Source: Allokutzneria sp. NRRL B-24872
GTDB taxonomy: Bacteria; Actinomycetota; Actinomycetes; Mycobacteriales; Pseudonocardiaceae
Reading direction: 5' to 3'
DNA length: 64,000 nt
Assembly (NCBI RefSeq): GCF_002155965.1
Contig: NZ_MUMH01000067.1
Coordinates: forward strand, 1-64,000
The notes below the pieces were generated by a model. It worked only from the letters and a program-made list of their open reading frames with translations. It searched no databases and was not told the DNA's origin. Made by a program: the position numbers and the translations under genes. This document shows, in pieces, positions 18,829 through 25,191 of the stretch; position 1 is the stretch's first letter; each line of letters opens with the position of its first letter.

Positions 18829-19200
18829 TCAGGCAGGGCTGTTGGTCACGGTGAACAGCGAGGTCACGCCCGCGATCTCCAGGATGCGCAGTGCGTACTT
18901 GCTCAGGTGCGTCAGCTCCAGCTCGCCCCCGGCCTCCTTGGCCGACTCGCGCGCCCTGACCAGCGCGCTGAGGCAGGCGGAGTCGAAGAAGGAGACACCG
19001 GAGAAGTCCACGGTGAGCCGGGTGGCGCCAGCCGTGAGCAGTCGCGCGACCTCGGCGTCCAGCTGCGGGGCCCCCGCGTAGTCGATCTCACCGACCAGCT
19101 TGATCCGCCCGGCCGTGCCCTCGACCTCGCCGTGCACGGAGCTGCCGATGCCGGCCTCGGCAGCGTCGCTCACCGGCTGCGTGGGGTTGTTGCTCGTCAT
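18829..19200 (-). CDS. STAS-domain anti-anti-sigma factor
   Basis: A 123-aa STAS protein. The phosphoacceptor region reads VDFSGVSFFDSACLSAL, with the serine at 74, as in RsbV/SpoIIAA. Such proteins bind an RsbW-type kinase when dephosphorylated and so free a sigma factor. A 30-residue N-terminal tail precedes the domain. It is divergent from the RsbR gene, 166 bp away, with an inverted repeat between, and very likely belongs to the same pathway; its kinase partner could be the RsbW-like product at 23525-23935. Confidence 0.9.
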   Translation of the reverse strand: MTSNNPTQPVSDAAEAGIGSSVHGEVEGTAGRIKLVGEIDYAGAPQLDAEVARLLTAGATRLTVDFSGVSFFDSACLSALVRARESAKEAGGELELTHLSKYALRILEIAGVTSLFTVTNSPA

Positions 19201-19313
19201 CCTGAACTCCCGCTGAGGTCGTCTTCCACCGTGCCACTGCCCGGACATTCCCGGCAGTTTTCTACAGAGGTGTCCCGCCGGGGCCGAGTTGAACCCCGAA
19301 GAGGCACTCCGAA

Positions 19314-19337
19314 TATGTTTGCCGTAAGACAAACATA
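19314..19337. promoter_or_regulatory. inverted repeat between STAS and RsbR genes
   Basis: TATGTTTG and CAAACATA form a perfect 8-bp repeat with an 8-bp spacer in the divergent intergenic region. On the minus strand its edge reads GGGTAT, similar to the -10 of SigB-type promoters, but I find no well-spaced -35. It is a candidate operator or promoter for both transcripts. Confidence 0.6.
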
Positions 19338-19366
19338 CCCGTCGTACGCAGTGAGGCAGGAAGTCC

Positions 19367-20230
19367 ATGGGTGAACAGCAGCGCCATTCCGGAGCAGAGG
19401 TCGCTTCCTTCCTCCTGGAACGCGAGTCCGAGGTCATCGACTCGTGGCGGCGGCTGCCCTTCTTCGACTCCGGTGACGCCGACGCCGCGCAGATCGAGCG
19501 GGACTGCGGGGCCGTCATCCGCGCGCTCGCCGAGGCCGTGCGCACCGGGGACGGGGACGATCCTGCCGCAAGTCCGTTCAACGCGCTGCGCGGCCTCTTC
19601 ATGGAGCTGGCAGGACGGCGAACCCGGCTCGGCGACACCGCCAGTGAGATCGCGGTGGAGGTCGGCAAGCTCAAGCGCCCGGTCGTGCGGCTGTGGAAGT
19701 CCGTGGAGGGCCAGCGCGGCGTCGAGGAGACCGCGCTGCTCGTCGACGCGCTCGGCACGCTGCGGGTGGCGGTCATGGAGATCGCCGTGGCCACCAGCGC
19801 CGAGCTGATCCAGCAGCAGCAGGAGCAGCTGCTGGAGCTGTCCACCCCGGTGATCCGGCTGTGGCGCGGCATCCTGGCCGTTCCGCTGATCGGCACCCTG
19901 GACAGCGCGCGCAGCCAGATCGCCATGGAGAGCCTGTTGCAGGCCATCGTCGACCAGAGCGCCGAGGTGGCGATCCTGGACATCACCGGTGTCTCCATGG
20001 TCGACACCATGGTGGCCCAGCACCTGCTCAAGACCGTGATGGCGGCCAGGATGATGGGCGCGGAGTGCATCATCAGCGGCATCCGCCCGCAGATCGCGCA
20101 GACCATGGTGCAGCTGGGGATCGACCTGGAGGAGGTCACCACCCGCGCCGGTCTCGCGGACGCGCTGGCCTTCGCGCTCGCCAAGATCGGCTACCAGGTC
20201 AGCGCCCCGAGCGGAACGGTCGGGCGGTGA
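19367..20230 (+). CDS. rsbR: RsbR-type stressosome co-antagonist
   Basis: A 287-aa protein. The N-terminal 145 residues are helical and variable, the likely sensor; the C-terminal STAS domain has LDITGVSMVDTMVAQHLL (T214) and GIRPQIAQT (T246). These match the two phosphorylated threonines of Bacillus RsbRA. RsbR forms the stressosome core with RsbS. The ATG at 19367 follows AGGAAG. It is the first gene of a six-gene operon with stop-start overlaps. The sensor region is not the globin-like domain I would recognise from RsbRA; its signal is unknown. Confidence 0.92.
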   Translation: MGEQQRHSGAEVASFLLERESEVIDSWRRLPFFDSGDADAAQIERDCGAVIRALAEAVRTGDGDDPAASPFNALRGLFMELAGRRTRLGDTASEIAVEVGKLKRPVVRLWKSVEGQRGVEETALLVDALGTLRVAVMEIAVATSAELIQQQQEQLLELSTPVIRLWRGILAVPLIGTLDSARSQIAMESLLQAIVDQSAEVAILDITGVSMVDTMVAQHLLKTVMAARMMGAECIISGIRPQIAQTMVQLGIDLEEVTTRAGLADALAFALAKIGYQVSAPSGTVGR

Positions 20231-20604
20231 ACGCGCTGCCGCTGCTGCGGATCGGCGACATCCTGCTGGTCAGCATCCAGGTCGAGCTGCACGACGAGCT
20301 GGCGCTGCGGTTCCAGCGGGAACTGGCGGAGAAGGTCGCCGACGAGGGCGTCCGGGGCGTGATCATCGACATCTCCGCGCTGGAGATCGTCGACTCCTTC
20401 CTCGGCCGCGTGCTGCACGACATCGCCGCGACCACCTCGGTGCTGGCCGCGCGCACCGTCGTCGTGGGCATGCGGCCCGCCGTGGCGATCACCCTGGTGG
20501 AGCTGGGGCTGTCGCTGCACGGGCTGCGCACCGCGCTCAACGTCGAGGCCGGACTGCGCCAGCTGGGCATCCGCAGGCTCGACGTGTCCGGGGAGGCGCG
20601 ATGA
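20227..20604 (+). CDS. rsbS: RsbS-type stressosome scaffold protein
   Basis: A 125-aa single STAS domain. The phosphorylation segment IIDISALEIVDSFLGRVL keeps the serine at 57 that RsbT phosphorylates in Bacillus RsbS. RsbS holds RsbT in the stressosome until phosphorylated. Its GTG (20227) overlaps the RsbR stop (GTGA), and its own stop overlaps the next ATG, so RsbR, RsbS and RsbT are tightly coupled. Confidence 0.93.
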   Translation: MNALPLLRIGDILLVSIQVELHDELALRFQRELAEKVADEGVRGVIIDISALEIVDSFLGRVLHDIAATTSVLAARTVVVGMRPAVAITLVELGLSLHGLRTALNVEAGLRQLGIRRLDVSGEAR

Positions 20605-21020
20605 GCCGAGTCCTGGCGGCGGACACCATGCCGATCAGGTCCGAGGGTGACATCGTCGGAGTCCGGCAGCTGGTCCGCGAGCACGGTTCGGCCGCGGAGC
20701 TGTCGCTGGTCGAGCAGACGAAGCTGGTGACCGCCGCGAGTGAGCTGGCCCGCAACACCCTGCTGCACGGCGGGGGAGGCGAGGTGGAGGTGCGCTCCAC
20801 CGAGGAGGACAAGCTGCGGACGATCCTGCTGCGCTTCGTCGACTCCGGTCCCGGCATCGAGGACCTGGAGCTGGCGCTGACCGACGGCTACACCACCGCG
20901 GGCGGGCTGGGGCTCGGCCTCGGCGGCACGCGCAGGCTGGCCAGCGAGTTCGAGATCGACTCGAAGCCCGGCGAAGGCACCACTGTCACGGTGCGCTTCC
21001 ACACGCGGGTCCGCAGGTGA
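20601..21020 (+). CDS. rsbT: RsbT-type serine/threonine kinase (switch protein)
   Basis: A 139-aa GHKL-fold kinase. N box ASELARNTLLHG, G1 box VDSGPGIED, and G2 box GLGLGLGGTRRLASEF are all present. RsbT phosphorylates RsbS and RsbR, is released, and then activates a PP2C phosphatase (RsbU). The next genes encode SpoIIE-type phosphatases that could be its targets. It starts by ATGA overlap with RsbS and ends by GTGA overlap with the next gene. Confidence 0.93.
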   Translation: MSRVLAADTMPIRSEGDIVGVRQLVREHGSAAELSLVEQTKLVTAASELARNTLLHGGGGEVEVRSTEEDKLRTILLRFVDSGPGIEDLELALTDGYTTAGGLGLGLGGTRRLASEFEIDSKPGEGTTVTVRFHTRVRR

Positions 21021-22015
21021 GCGAACGCCGGCTGGACATGCGGGTGAACGAGCCCAGCCACGTGGGCAGGGCGCGGGCGCTCGCGGTCGAGGCGGCCAAG
21101 CGCGCCGGGCTGTCGGAGGACTCGGTCGGCCAGGTGGCGCTCGCCGCGAGCGAGCTGGCGAGCAACCTGGTCAAGCACGCGGTCGACGGCATGCTGCTGG
21201 CCCAGCACGCGCCGGGCCGGCTGAACCTGGTCACGGTGGACCGGGGGCCGGGCATGCGCGATCCGAAGCGCTGCCTCACCGACGGGTTCTCCACCGCGGG
21301 GAGCATGGGCACGGGGATGGGCGCGATCCGCCGCGCTGCGGACTTCTTCGACCTCTACTCCTTGCGCGACAAGGGAACCGCGGTGCTCGCGCGGTGGCTC
21401 GAAGGCGGTGCCGACGCGGGTGCGGCCGGTATCGTGCTGCCCGCCCCGGGGGAGTCGGCCTGCGGTGACGGCTGGCGGGTCGCCGACGACGGCCGGCGGG
21501 TGACGGCCGTGCTCATCGACGGCTCCGGGCACGGAAGGGCCGCCGAGGCGGCCGCGGCCAGCGCCTTGCGGGTGGTCGACGAGTCGCCGTTCGTGCGGCC
21601 GCTGGACATGCTGGAGCTGATGCGCGAGCGGATCGCGCAGACGAGGGGGGCCGCGGCCGCGGTCGTGGCGATCGACCGCGAGGCCGGGGTGCTCCGCTTC
21701 GCCGGGGTGGGCAACATAGTGGTGAAGGTGCACGAACCCGGGGCGGAGCACAGCGTTCAGCTGGTGTCCTCCCCTGGCATAGTCGGCCACCGGGCCCAGC
21801 GCCACCGGCCGGTGGAGACGCTGCGGGAGTGGACGACGGAGACCATGGTGATCATGAACACCGACGGGATCAGCCAGCGGTGGTCGCTGGCGGACTGGCC
21901 CGGCGTGCGCGCGGTCGACCCGCTGCTGCTGGGAGCGCTGATCCTGTGGCAGGCCAACCGACTGCGGGACGACGCGGGGGTGCTCGTGCTCGCCGGGAAC
22001 GGCGGCGGCCGATGA
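21017..22015 (+). CDS. GHKL kinase-SpoIIE phosphatase fusion (RsbX-like)
   Basis: A 332-aa protein with two halves. Residues 1 to about 130 form a second RsbT-like ATPase domain (ASELASNLVKHA, VDRGPGMRD, MGTGMGAIRRAADFF). Residues about 140-332 form a PP2C/SpoIIE domain with VLIDGSGHGRAAEAAA and NTDGIS; the metal-binding Asp is kept. In Bacillus, RsbX removes phosphates from RsbS and RsbR; here a kinase-like domain is fused to that activity. It is coupled to its neighbours by overlapping codons on both sides. Confidence 0.9.
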   Translation: MSERRLDMRVNEPSHVGRARALAVEAAKRAGLSEDSVGQVALAASELASNLVKHAVDGMLLAQHAPGRLNLVTVDRGPGMRDPKRCLTDGFSTAGSMGTGMGAIRRAADFFDLYSLRDKGTAVLARWLEGGADAGAAGIVLPAPGESACGDGWRVADDGRRVTAVLIDGSGHGRAAEAAAASALRVVDESPFVRPLDMLELMRERIAQTRGAAAAVVAIDREAGVLRFAGVGNIVVKVHEPGAEHSVQLVSSPGIVGHRAQRHRPVETLREWTTETMVIMNTDGISQRWSLADWPGVRAVDPLLLGALILWQANRLRDDAGVLVLAGNGGGR

Positions 22016-23535
22016 GCCAGGACAGGACCGATCTGGTCGTCCGCGAGGTCCGCGGCGAGGCCGACGCGGCGCGGCTGCGCGAGCTGGTGCTGCGCGTGGT
22101 CCTCCAGCTGCCCGTCGACGACGTGAACCGGGCCGAACTGCTCGTGGCGACCTCGCGGGAGCTGCGCGCGCTGGTCGGTGCCGGGGGCGGCACGGTGCGG
22201 ATCGCGGTGGAGGACCTGCCCGAGGGGACACCGCTGCCGGTGCTCGGCGAGGAGCAGGAGCGGCTGGGCGAGGAGGCCCTGCTGGTCCCGCTGCTGCGGG
22301 TGATCACCGAGCAGCGCAAGGTGCTCGGCTGGCACCAGACCGAGCTGCAGCAGACCAACGCGGGCCTGCTCGCCCTGCACGCGGAGCTGGAGCAGCAGCG
22401 GCGCAGGCTCACCTTCCTCGACGAGATCAGCAGGATGCTGGTCACCTCGCTGGCCGAGGACGAGGTCCTGCAACGGCTGGTGCAGCACCTGGTGCGCGCG
22501 GGCTTCGCCGAGACGGCCACCGCGTGGGTGCCCGTCGAGGAGGTGCTGTCCTGCGCCGCCACGACCGAGGACGAGATCCCGCGCATGCCCTCGCAGCGGG
22601 TGGTCGCCGCCGCGCGGACGCACCGCACGCAGAGCGGTGAGGGCACGCTCGTGCTGCCGTTCCTGGTCGGCACCCAGAGCCTCGGCGTGCTCGAACTGCG
22701 GCGGCAGCAGCCCGACTACGACGAGGACGAGCGCGAGCTGGGCAACCACGTGGCCAGCCGTGCCGCCGTCGCCATGCGCAACGCCCGCGAGTACGAGCGC
22801 GAGCGCGACCTCGCCGAGACGCTGCAACGGGCGATGCTGCCCGCGCTGCCGCACCCGCCGGGCATGCGGGTCTGCGCGCGCTACCGCCCCGCGACGCGCG
22901 GCATCAACGTCGGCGGCGACTGGTTCGACGCGTTCACCCGGCCGGACGGGCGGCTCGTGCTCACCGTGGGCGATGTGACCGGGCACGGCATCGACGCGGC
23001 GCTGATGATGGGCCAGCTGCAGAAGGCGTTGCGCGCTTACGCGATCGAGGGGCACGGGCCCGCGACCACGCTCGGCCTGGTGCACAAGCTGATGCGGACG
23101 CAGGAGACCGACCTCTTCGCGACCGCGGTGCTGGCCGAGCTGGACCCGGAGACCGGGGTGCTGCGGTGGGCGGGCGCCGGGCACCTGCCGATGGCGTTGC
23201 GGTCCCCGGACGGCGCCGCGCGACTGCTCACCGAGCGGCAGGCTCCGCTGCTCGGACTGCCGTTGGCCAGCCTGGACGTGCCGGAGCACACCACGGTCAT
23301 CGAGCCCGGTGGGGGCCTGCTGCTGTACACCGACGGTCTGGTCGAACGACGGCACTACGACATCGATACCGGTTTGAGACGTTTGACCGGTGCGTTTGCT
23401 GCCGATCCCGGTATCCAGGGGGAGCCGTTGGTCCGGTCGATGCTGGCCGATCTGTTGACGGACAGTCGGCACGAGGACGACATGTGTCTTCTCCTGTGCG
23501 AGCGAGTGGCACCTGAGAACCCTGATGCGGAGTGA
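22012..23535 (+). CDS. GAF-SpoIIE serine phosphatase (RsbU-like)
   Basis: A 507-aa cytoplasmic phosphatase. Residues 1-85 look like a worn GHKL remnant, 100-135 are coiled coil (HQTELQQTNAGLLALHAELE), about 135-265 a GAF domain, and 280-500 the SpoIIE catalytic domain with GGDWFDAF, VGDVTGHGIDAALMM and LYTDGLVERR, all metal ligands kept. It is the likely RsbU equivalent that dephosphorylates the anti-anti-sigma factor. ATG 22012 overlaps the previous stop; a longer frame upstream is only read-through. Confidence 0.92.
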   Translation: MSQDRTDLVVREVRGEADAARLRELVLRVVLQLPVDDVNRAELLVATSRELRALVGAGGGTVRIAVEDLPEGTPLPVLGEEQERLGEEALLVPLLRVITEQRKVLGWHQTELQQTNAGLLALHAELEQQRRRLTFLDEISRMLVTSLAEDEVLQRLVQHLVRAGFAETATAWVPVEEVLSCAATTEDEIPRMPSQRVVAAARTHRTQSGEGTLVLPFLVGTQSLGVLELRRQQPDYDEDERELGNHVASRAAVAMRNAREYERERDLAETLQRAMLPALPHPPGMRVCARYRPATRGINVGGDWFDAFTRPDGRLVLTVGDVTGHGIDAALMMGQLQKALRAYAIEGHGPATTLGLVHKLMRTQETDLFATAVLAELDPETGVLRWAGAGHLPMALRSPDGAARLLTERQAPLLGLPLASLDVPEHTTVIEPGGGLLLYTDGLVERRHYDIDTGLRRLTGAFAADPGIQGEPLVRSMLADLLTDSRHEDDMCLLLCERVAPENPDAE

Positions 23536-23935
23536 GTGCGTGCCAGAGGCAGCGAGTTCGGAGTCCACGCGGACCGTCGTCCCGTTGCAACGCGATCCCG
23601 GAGCCTGCGCGGCGGTCCGGGCCCTCGTGACGCGGGTGCTCGGCGACTGGGCGATGCCGGAGGAGCTCGTGCGCGACGCTGTGCTGGTCGCGAACGAGCT
23701 GGTGGCCAACGCCGTCGAGCACGGCGAGGGTCAGGTGTGGTTCGGCCTGAGCAGGGTGGGAGCCGGTATCCGGATGGAGACCGGCGACAGCGGTGTCGAG
23801 CTGCCCCGCCTGCGCAGCACCGGCCCGACCGACGAGCGGCACCGCGGCCTGGTCATCGTCGGAGCGCTGAGCACCGGCTGGGGGATCGAGCACCACCCCG
23901 ACGGCAAGGTCGTCTGGGCCACCATGACCCCCTGA
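23525..23935 (+). CDS. RsbW-like anti-sigma GHKL kinase
   Basis: A 136-aa HATPase_c domain protein: ANELVANAVEHGEG (N box), ETGDSGVELPRL (a diverged G1 box) and HRGLVIVGALSTGWG (G2). The pattern is the short actinobacterial RsbW/SpoIIAB-like type, which binds a sigma factor or phosphorylates an anti-anti-sigma protein. Its ATG lies 11 bp inside the preceding gene. It closes the stressosome operon; a 61-bp hairpin follows. No sigma factor gene is adjacent, so the target must be encoded elsewhere. Confidence 0.87.
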   Translation: MRSECVPEAASSESTRTVVPLQRDPGACAAVRALVTRVLGDWAMPEELVRDAVLVANELVANAVEHGEGQVWFGLSRVGAGIRMETGDSGVELPRLRSTGPTDERHRGLVIVGALSTGWGIEHHPDGKVVWATMTP

Positions 23936-23953
23936 CCACCACGCCCGTGTTGA

Positions 23954-24014
23954 GCGTTTTGGCAACTCGTTGCGAAAGAGAGCGCTCCCCAATCGCAACA
24001 AGTAGCCAAAACGC
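23954..24014. terminator. long two-part hairpin between convergent genes
   Basis: Left arm 23954-23975 and right arm 23993-24014, 22 bases each. GCGTTTTGGC pairs with GCCAAAACGC (10 bp) and GTTGCGA with TCGCAAC (7 bp), separated by a symmetric 5x5 internal loop; the apical loop is 17 bases. It lies between the stress operon and the convergent SpoIIE gene, so a two-way terminator is the simplest reading. Confidence 0.78.
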
Positions 24015-24039
24015 GAAGGACCGCGTCGTGGGGTGGGGG

Positions 24040-25191
24040 TCAGGAGGGGCGGCCGCGCCAGTCGAGGCAGACCGCGACGGCGTCGTCCTCGGGGTCGGCT
24101 TCGCCGCCGAAGCGGCTGAGGTCGGCGAGGAGCGCGCGGACGGCTTCCGCCGCCGAGAGGTCCCTGGTGCTCGCCAGCAACGCGGACAGGAGCTCGTCGC
24201 CGTAGCTGCGCTCGCCGGAACGCGCTTCGTAGACACCGTCGCTGATGATCATCAGGCGGTCGCCCGGCACCAGCTCGAAGCGCTGCTCCAGGTAGTGGGT
24301 GCTGTCGAACATGCCCAGCGGCAGCTGCGGCTCCAACCGCATGTCCAGCACCTCATCGCCGCGCAGGCGCCAGATCTGCGGGGAGCCCGCGTCGATCACG
24401 GCGAGCCGCCCGGTGGCCAGCTCGATCTGCAGCAGCAGCGTGGACACGTGCTGCTTGCCGCCGTGCTGCGCCCAGATCGCCTGGTCGGCCAGTGCCGCCT
24501 GGTCGGCCAGTTCGACACCGGCGCGGCGGGCGTTGCGCAGCGCGTGGATGGCCAGGCTGGTCAGCAGCGCCGCGTCGACGCTCTCGCCCATGCCGTTGGT
24601 GACCGCGATGGTCAGGTGCTCCTCGTCGGAGCTCCAGTCGAAGTTGTCCCCGCGCACCGCGTAGGCGGGCTCCAGCTGACCGGCGAGGCTGAACTCCGCC
24701 TGGTCGAGGCCGCGGCCGGGCAGCAGGTCCCACTGCATCTCCGCGGCCAGGGTGAGCCGTTCGGTGCGGCGGGCCCTGCGGAAGCGGTCGGTGACGACCT
24801 CGGCGGCGACGAGCGCCTGCCCGACGCGCGCGGCGAGCTCGGTCAGCTCCGCGAGCTCGAGATCCCCCGGCGGTGTCCCCGCCCAGCGCAGGCGCAGCAC
24901 GCCGAGGCGGTCACCCCTGACGCTGATCGGCAGGTGGTGGAAGTCCCCGTCGACCACCGTCCTCTGCTGGGCAAACGCGGTGCCGGCCGGGGAGGAAGGG
25001 ACGGGGTGCCCGCCCGATCCCGGGTGCAGCACGGGCTCCAGGGAGCGCGACCGGTAGTCGGCAAGCAACACCTCGGCTTCCGCGGCTCCGTAGCGGGTGT
25101 GGAGAATGTCCCGCACGGCGTCGCCGAGGCTGTGCGCGGGCGCGCTCGCCATGGCACGCTCGACGTCAGCCAGCCGATGGGTCGGGTGCAA
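24040..25191 (-). CDS. SpoIIE-like phosphatase family protein with altered metal site
   Basis: A 383-aa protein with a GAF-like N-terminal half and a SpoIIE-type C-terminal half (GDNFDWSSD, DAGSPQIW, ISDGVYEARS, DDAVAVCLDW). Where the intact neighbour has GDVTGHG, this one has TNGMGES, so a metal-binding Asp is replaced by Asn. It may be weak, inactive or regulatory. The TTG start (25189-25191) is supported by a perfect AGGAGG five bases upstream. It is convergent with the stress operon but probably part of the same signalling network. Confidence 0.85.
   Translation of the reverse strand: MHPTHRLADVERAMASAPAHSLGDAVRDILHTRYGAAEAEVLLADYRSRSLEPVLHPGSGGHPVPSSPAGTAFAQQRTVVDGDFHHLPISVRGDRLGVLRLRWAGTPPGDLELAELTELAARVGQALVAAEVVTDRFRRARRTERLTLAAEMQWDLLPGRGLDQAEFSLAGQLEPAYAVRGDNFDWSSDEEHLTIAVTNGMGESVDAALLTSLAIHALRNARRAGVELADQAALADQAIWAQHGGKQHVSTLLLQIELATGRLAVIDAGSPQIWRLRGDEVLDMRLEPQLPLGMFDSTHYLEQRFELVPGDRLMIISDGVYEARSGERSYGDELLSALLASTRDLSAAEAVRALLADLSRFGGEADPEDDAVAVCLDWRGRPS

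Follow-up and report, generated by a model that had tools for sequence, protein, structure and literature searches.

The window analysed here comprises bases 1-64000 of the 110-kb contig NZ_MUMH01000067.1 (C440) of Allokutzneria sp. NRRL B-24872, whose genome assembly spans 8.2 Mb in 475 contigs and is 95% complete. It carries an eight-gene stressosome locus (Table 1), beginning 18.8 kb inside the contig and flanked on both sides by unrelated genes. Frame calls and Pfam place the genes exactly at 18829-25191; V (minus strand) diverges from the plus-strand series R, S, T, X, U and W, toward which E2 (minus strand) converges. Four-nucleotide overlaps join R/S, S/T, T/X and X/U, and an 11-nt overlap joins U/W; an alternative in-frame GTG start at 23540 would abolish the latter. 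A first-pass annotation of the window had described this gene content, these coordinates and overlaps, the divergent V and the convergent E2, and the description holds to the base. In two Allokutzneria congeners seven of the genes are 84-97% identical to those of the window and W is about 85% identical, and the ratio of nonsynonymous to synonymous substitution rates (dN/dS) against both congeners is 0.13-0.31 for all eight genes, as expected under purifying selection; this conservation indicates that the gene set is not a product of chance. Judged by its sequence, the locus is a complete stressosome module that looks functional and belongs to a type familiar from streptomycetes and mycobacteria. 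Among the matches listed by a literature search, which included Allokutzneria by name and was not directed at the E2 substitution as such, none describes the locus.

Table 1. Genes and other features of the stressosome locus
Feature	Positions	Strand	Assignment	Basis
V	18829-19200	-	Stand-alone STAS protein, RsbV-type anti-sigma antagonist; phosphoserine S74	Pfam STAS_2/STAS; TIGR00377 above cut-off
Dyad	19314-19337	no strand	TATGTTTG-N8-CAAACATA; 24 bp, 29 nt before rsbR	
R	19367-20230	+	RsbR: RsbRD_N sensor domain and STAS; T214, T246	Pfam
S	20227-20604	+	RsbS scaffold; S57	Pfam STAS
T	20601-21020	+	RsbT switch kinase; N-box E48/N52, D81	Pfam HATPase
X	21017-22015	+	RsbT-like HATPase fused to RsbX-type PP2C	Pfam HATPase_c_2 and SpoIIE
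U	22012-23535	+	RsbU-type phosphatase: putative half HATPase fold (~6-66), coil (88-144), GAF, SpoIIE/PPM	Pfam, hhalign, predicted structure
W	23525-23935	+	RsbW-like HATPase of a second lineage; probable V kinase	Pfam HATPase_c_2
E2	24040-25191	-	SpoIIE-like; Asn199 replacing metal-ligand Asp	Pfam SpoIIE

R, S and T have the features of a stressosome core. R ends in a STAS domain with two phosphothreonines and matches the RsbR chains of solved stressosomes in a PDB sequence comparison (7o0i, 7b0u, and 6qcm); its N-terminus is of the RsbRD_N type, unlike that of Bacillus subtilis RsbR, which is globin-like. S is a single STAS domain with a phosphoserine, and T, encoded directly after S, has the N-box and G1 residues. 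Related loci were taken as the best 80 of 207 confirmed relatives plus 20 others, giving 100 distinct RsbT loci; five duplicate records were counted once in the residue, fusion and later counts. Across 99 stressosome loci, the window included, the residue at R214 is threonine in 50, serine in 48 and alanine in 1, R246 is threonine in 98, and S57 is serine in all. RsbT residues E48 and N52 are kept in 100 of 100 loci and D81 in 99. The phosphosites named in the first-pass annotation (T214, T246, and S57) are intact and correctly placed.

The kinase and phosphatase parts that follow had been regarded as extra, but they belong to the usual set. A fusion of a kinase domain with RsbX follows RsbT in 92 of the 100 distinct loci (74/80 and 18/20), which span Pseudonocardiaceae, Streptomyces, Massilia/Duganella and Acidobacteria; of the eight loci without it, some reflect contig ends or merged reading frames (L044, L045, L065, and L118), and in others the fusion is truly absent (L147). 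The order RsbR, RsbS, RsbT, kinase-RsbX fusion and SpoIIE-type phosphatase is the arrangement commonly seen in actinobacteria, and it turns up in Proteobacteria and Acidobacteria as well.

In X, the phosphatase portion matches 3w40 (RsbX) and 3zt9 (a SpoIIE-type stressosome entry) and retains its Asp residues, the HATPase domain falls in the T/X clade of the HATPase tree, and the motifs are conserved in 93-94 of 94 cases. Set against a single-domain RsbX encoded next to RsbT, X fits in its PP2C part but has an N-terminal HATPase fused on. In U, the Pfam score for GAF lies just under the cut-off (27.7 versus 28.6 bits), and the predicted structure (mean predicted local distance difference test score, pLDDT, 88.6) supports the domain, its residues ~125-263 matching GAF structures with Z scores of 17-19. 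For the phosphatase domain of U, the nearest structural match is the RsbU domain of Rv1364c (3ke6; Z 29.0 over 225 residues). We read the start of U as half an RsbT-like kinase fold; since the structural search barely covered residues 1-126, this reading rests on an hhalign match to RsbT profiles (probability 88, with 1 and 0.1 for two unrelated controls) and on the beta-alpha-alpha-beta order in the predicted structure. The coil that follows is long, with an invariant core and the motif TNxGxxALxAEL, which recurs in histidine-kinase-like proteins encoded after RsbT in seven of nine non-actinobacterial loci. In Massilia/Duganella and other operons (L055, L069, L079, L085, L117, L119, and L122) U is replaced by a histidine-kinase-like protein of this sort, with the motif in its coil. 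RsbT has been proposed to work through the coiled-coil linker of exchangeable outputs (PMC12143880), an idea that the predicted half-kinase fold and the coil motif of U would fit.

The first-pass annotation had also described the locus as lacking a sigma gene, with the proviso that if the operon continued beyond the window into such a gene, this would be an ordinary sigB locus. The whole of contig C440 is free of sigma genes, none of the genome's 59 Sigma70_r2 matches being there, so neither the locus nor its surroundings supply one. A genome-wide search for SigB/SigF-type sigma factors returned a single SigBFG protein over the cut-off of 234 bits, at 308 bits and on contig C40; the next best match reached 136. 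This sigma (SigF) is encoded directly downstream of an RsbW gene of its own, and a SpoIIE-HATPase-STAS fusion and an RsbV-like gene lie nearby. The three-domain fusion (L123, 10520-11956), divergent from rsbW-sigF, is comparable to mycobacterial RsbUVW of the Rv1364c type. At the assembly's level of completeness a second sigma could have been missed, but both congeners (G001 and G002) agree on exactly one SigBFG at E<=1e-50. In G002, which is a single contig, SigBFG (4.28 Mb) and the stressosome (7.69 Mb) are about 3.4 Mb apart.

A missing sigma neighbour is ordinary for such loci. In stretches reaching mostly ~8-11 kb to each side of RsbT, and shorter at contig ends (an 11.4-kb contig in G043), a SigB-type sigma was found in 3 of 23 RsbT-bearing genomes (G003, G019, and G031). 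Among the best 80 loci a sigma lies within 6 kb in 16 and within ~10 kb in 34, chiefly in Streptomyces; sigma-less stressosome loci are common and linked sigma genes also occur. SigBFG was found at E<=1e-50 in 60 of 60 genomes (above the curated cut-off in 56) and an RsbT stressosome in 23 of them, so finding SigF in a genome is not enough to connect it with a stressosome. At this threshold SigBFG is single in seven of the 23 RsbT-bearing genomes, and any SigB-type output there must therefore be that sigma.

The placement of V and W suggests how such an output could be reached. S74 of V is serine in 20 of 20 relatives, and V falls within a clade of 16 STAS proteins from stressosome loci (support 96, starred, in one tree and 94 in another). 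In two Streptoalloteichus species a relative of V is the first gene of a V-RsbW-sigma operon next to the stressosome, and in four relatives (L072, L098, L114, and L139) V and a W-clade kinase adjoin on one strand. The HATPase domains were placed in two trees, of 128 and 68 domains, the latter being the careful tree. In both, 30 of the 31 kinases whose genes precede a sigma gene group in a single clade, which includes the C40 RsbW and excludes W; in the careful tree the W clade (16 rows, 100/98) is separate from the sigma-adjacent RsbW clade (33 rows, 98/95). The W clade consists of stressosome-locus kinases, a kinase from contig C257 of the same genome and some kinases near sigma genes. From these neighbourhoods V would be the natural connection from the stressosome to a sigma factor and a likelier link than W, and the position of W outside the clade of sigma-upstream RsbW proteins points to a kinase that is probably the switch kinase of V rather than an anti-sigma factor. 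The designation of W as an RsbW-like kinase is upheld by its HATPase_c_2 fold in Pfam and is qualified by its place outside the sigma-adjacent RsbW clade; a comparison of W with PDB sequences gave no meaningful match.

Two further observations concern these kinases. The C257 kinase, the second W-clade member of the genome (L223, 2764-3687), adjoins a STAS gene in a 6-kb stretch with no sigma gene, and the two make up a further partner-switch pair. In Saccharomonospora (L067, 12811-13308; L072, 12825-13325), a sigma-clade RsbW is convergent to the stressosome operon with no adjacent sigma detected; these proteins are nearest to the RsbW of G031, which does have a sigma.

Separation of stressosome and sigma factor has a counterpart in Streptomyces coelicolor, where the stressosome operon runs from SCO7324 onward and SigB (SCO0600) is remote (PMC7244524; PMC8346170; PMC11472566), and where RsbV (SCO7325) and RsbA (SCO0599) take part in activating SigB (PMC8346170; PMC11472566; PMC9739823). 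In Streptomyces violaceoruber (L096), a close relative, R, S, T, the kinase-RsbX fusion and U stand in the same order as in the window, but V is on the strand of R and belongs to another STAS lineage, whereas V diverges here; orthology between the window V and the Streptomyces stressosome V was considered and is not supported by the STAS tree. In the S. coelicolor system, W is not at the operon end, whereas it is last here, and nine SigB homologues are reported (PMC8346170) against one SigBFG here. Owing to the difference in V lineage, the S. coelicolor case is only an analogy.

The mycobacterial module is functionally the same set as the window: rsbR, S, T, X and UW occur together with rsbV and SigF/RsbW, the sigma factor having its own RsbW, and in Mycobacterium marinum RsbRST acts on SigF (PMC8115616). 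U and W are named there as one gene, rsbUW (PMC8115616), but are separate genes in the window. In a relative from the same order (G055; L147), X lacks the kinase domain that it has here and the phosphatase carries a C-terminal HATPase. The B. subtilis sigB operon has the order rsbR-S-T-U-V-W-sigB-rsbX (PMC7522486). Counterparts of its RsbR, RsbS, RsbT, RsbU, RsbV and RsbX are all in the window; the window differs in having no sigma gene, in the position of RsbX after RsbT and its fusion to a kinase domain, and in the divergence of V.

We lean, with slightly better than even confidence, towards a stressosome module that works with a remote sigma factor, in which V dephosphorylated by U acts on the C40 RsbW and frees SigF. 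R and S would form a sensor shell that holds the kinase T. Under stress, T would phosphorylate R and S and then leave the shell, and free T would activate the phosphatase U through the N-terminal half-kinase domain and coil of the latter. U would then remove the phosphate from V, and unphosphorylated V would displace the remote sigma from the C40 RsbW, rendering SigF active; W would re-phosphorylate V, and X would reset R and S. The protein contacts and all directions of phosphate transfer in this scheme, including the action of V on the C40 RsbW, are those that we infer. The first-pass annotation had expected a remote sigma factor or none; the C40 SigF is a plausible remote sigma and the best candidate, and what does not stand up well is W as its anti-sigma factor.

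Several points weigh against this assignment. No sequence test ties V to the C40 RsbW, and the V-like proteins of C40 itself may be enough for SigF. The support from Streptomyces is lessened by the different lineage of its stressosome V in the STAS tree and by the fact that SCO7324 and SCO7325 are taken to be adjacent from their numbering. Besides a remote SigBFG, the genomes G003, G019 and G031 carry a second copy next to the stressosome, so the former partner of V may have been a sigma that Allokutzneria lacks. The linked and remote copies separate in the sigma tree with support of 88 and 82, not starred, and the linked copy may have been lost in Allokutzneria or gained in G003, G019 and G031. 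A SigF-type promoter (GTTT N13-18 GGGTA) was not found in the locus.

The strongest competitor, although improbable, is an output other than a sigma factor, with V and W as a closed switch whose free partner acts elsewhere, as in stressosomes that drive histidine kinases or diguanylate cyclases. It would account for the 20 of 23 RsbT-bearing genomes without a sigma in the fetched stretch, for the place of W outside the sigma-adjacent clade and for the coil motif that U shares with the histidine-kinase-like proteins after RsbT in most of the non-actinobacterial loci; Vibrio vulnificus has a stressosome but no SigB (PMC10436020). U, however, ends in an RsbU-type phosphatase, V is by family an ordinary anti-sigma antagonist, and relatives of V stand in the sigma operons of two species.

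A speculative reading of the locus as a two-kinase switch, to be taken still more loosely, makes V a shared element: W, not itself an anti-sigma factor, would set the level of active V, the remote sigma-bound RsbW would read it, E2 would be a decoy or a tuned phosphatase acting on V or on R/S, and the kinase-derived domains of X and U would dock both phosphatases at the stressosome in competition with T.

That W is the anti-sigma factor of the remote sigma, as the first-pass annotation supposed, is doubtful. Its RsbW-like fold in Pfam would allow it, and for 6 of the 15 W-clade members checked the stretch also contains a sigma gene; but five of these six also have a sigma-clade RsbW, and the other nine members have no sigma in the stretch. 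In G017 (L191, 2501-4693), a SigBFG gene is immediately followed on its strand by a W-clade kinase and has a sigma-clade RsbW upstream, so that two RsbW-like kinases surround a single sigma gene. The one SigBFG sigma of the Allokutzneria genome already has its own RsbW, and both HATPase trees, with the two clades separate in the careful one, speak against W in this role. It is very improbable that the genes are the remains of a sigB locus, decaying after loss of its sigma gene and function: relatives with a linked sigma exist (3/23) and in Saccharomonospora (L067 and L072) a sigma-clade RsbW persists where no adjacent sigma was detected, but in the window the motifs are intact, the gene overlaps unbroken and all eight genes under the constraint given above.

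The remaining gene of the locus, E2, has an altered metal site. Its Asn199 aligns with SpoIIE D628, the Asp of the (D)GMG motif and an M2 metal ligand (PMC5468089), so that E2 lacks the conserved Asp by which an active SpoIIE/PPM phosphatase is recognized. Among 26 homologues from stressosome loci this position is Asn in 24 and Asp in 2, and the remaining ligand Asp residues are kept in all 26. E2 may be a pseudo-phosphatase or may use metal differently; its predicted structure is only fair (mean pLDDT 79.6). The Asn-bearing family includes members at L043, L125, L126 and Streptomyces loci, and NGMG occurs in three more remote copies (L217, L219, and L220). Strict co-occurrence of E2 with stressosomes does not hold: only 5 of 14 E2 places (E<1e-60, 60 genomes) are beside RsbT, and G048 and G059 carry E2 without any RsbT match.

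The dyad before rsbR is a possible operator or RNA hairpin. Its arms are identical in three Allokutzneria genomes and its centre differs; within two mismatches the pattern has a single place in the genome, and a reversed control pattern gave one match on each strand as well. An inverted-repeat scan at its minimum length did not report the dyad, and a sigma-70-type promoter scan of the locus found none (0.2 expected).

Stressosome loci without a sigma gene prove to be the rule in this actinobacterial family, and the assignment of V as likely bridge to a remote sigma factor and of W as the probable kinase of V offers a testable wiring for them. One Pfam name hides two lineages of RsbW-like kinases, which are separated here, and a conserved, possibly inactive phosphatase (E2) sits beside many stressosomes. 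The single SigB/F-type sigma in 7 of 23 RsbT-bearing genomes makes the output of the stressosome there resolvable with one deletion.

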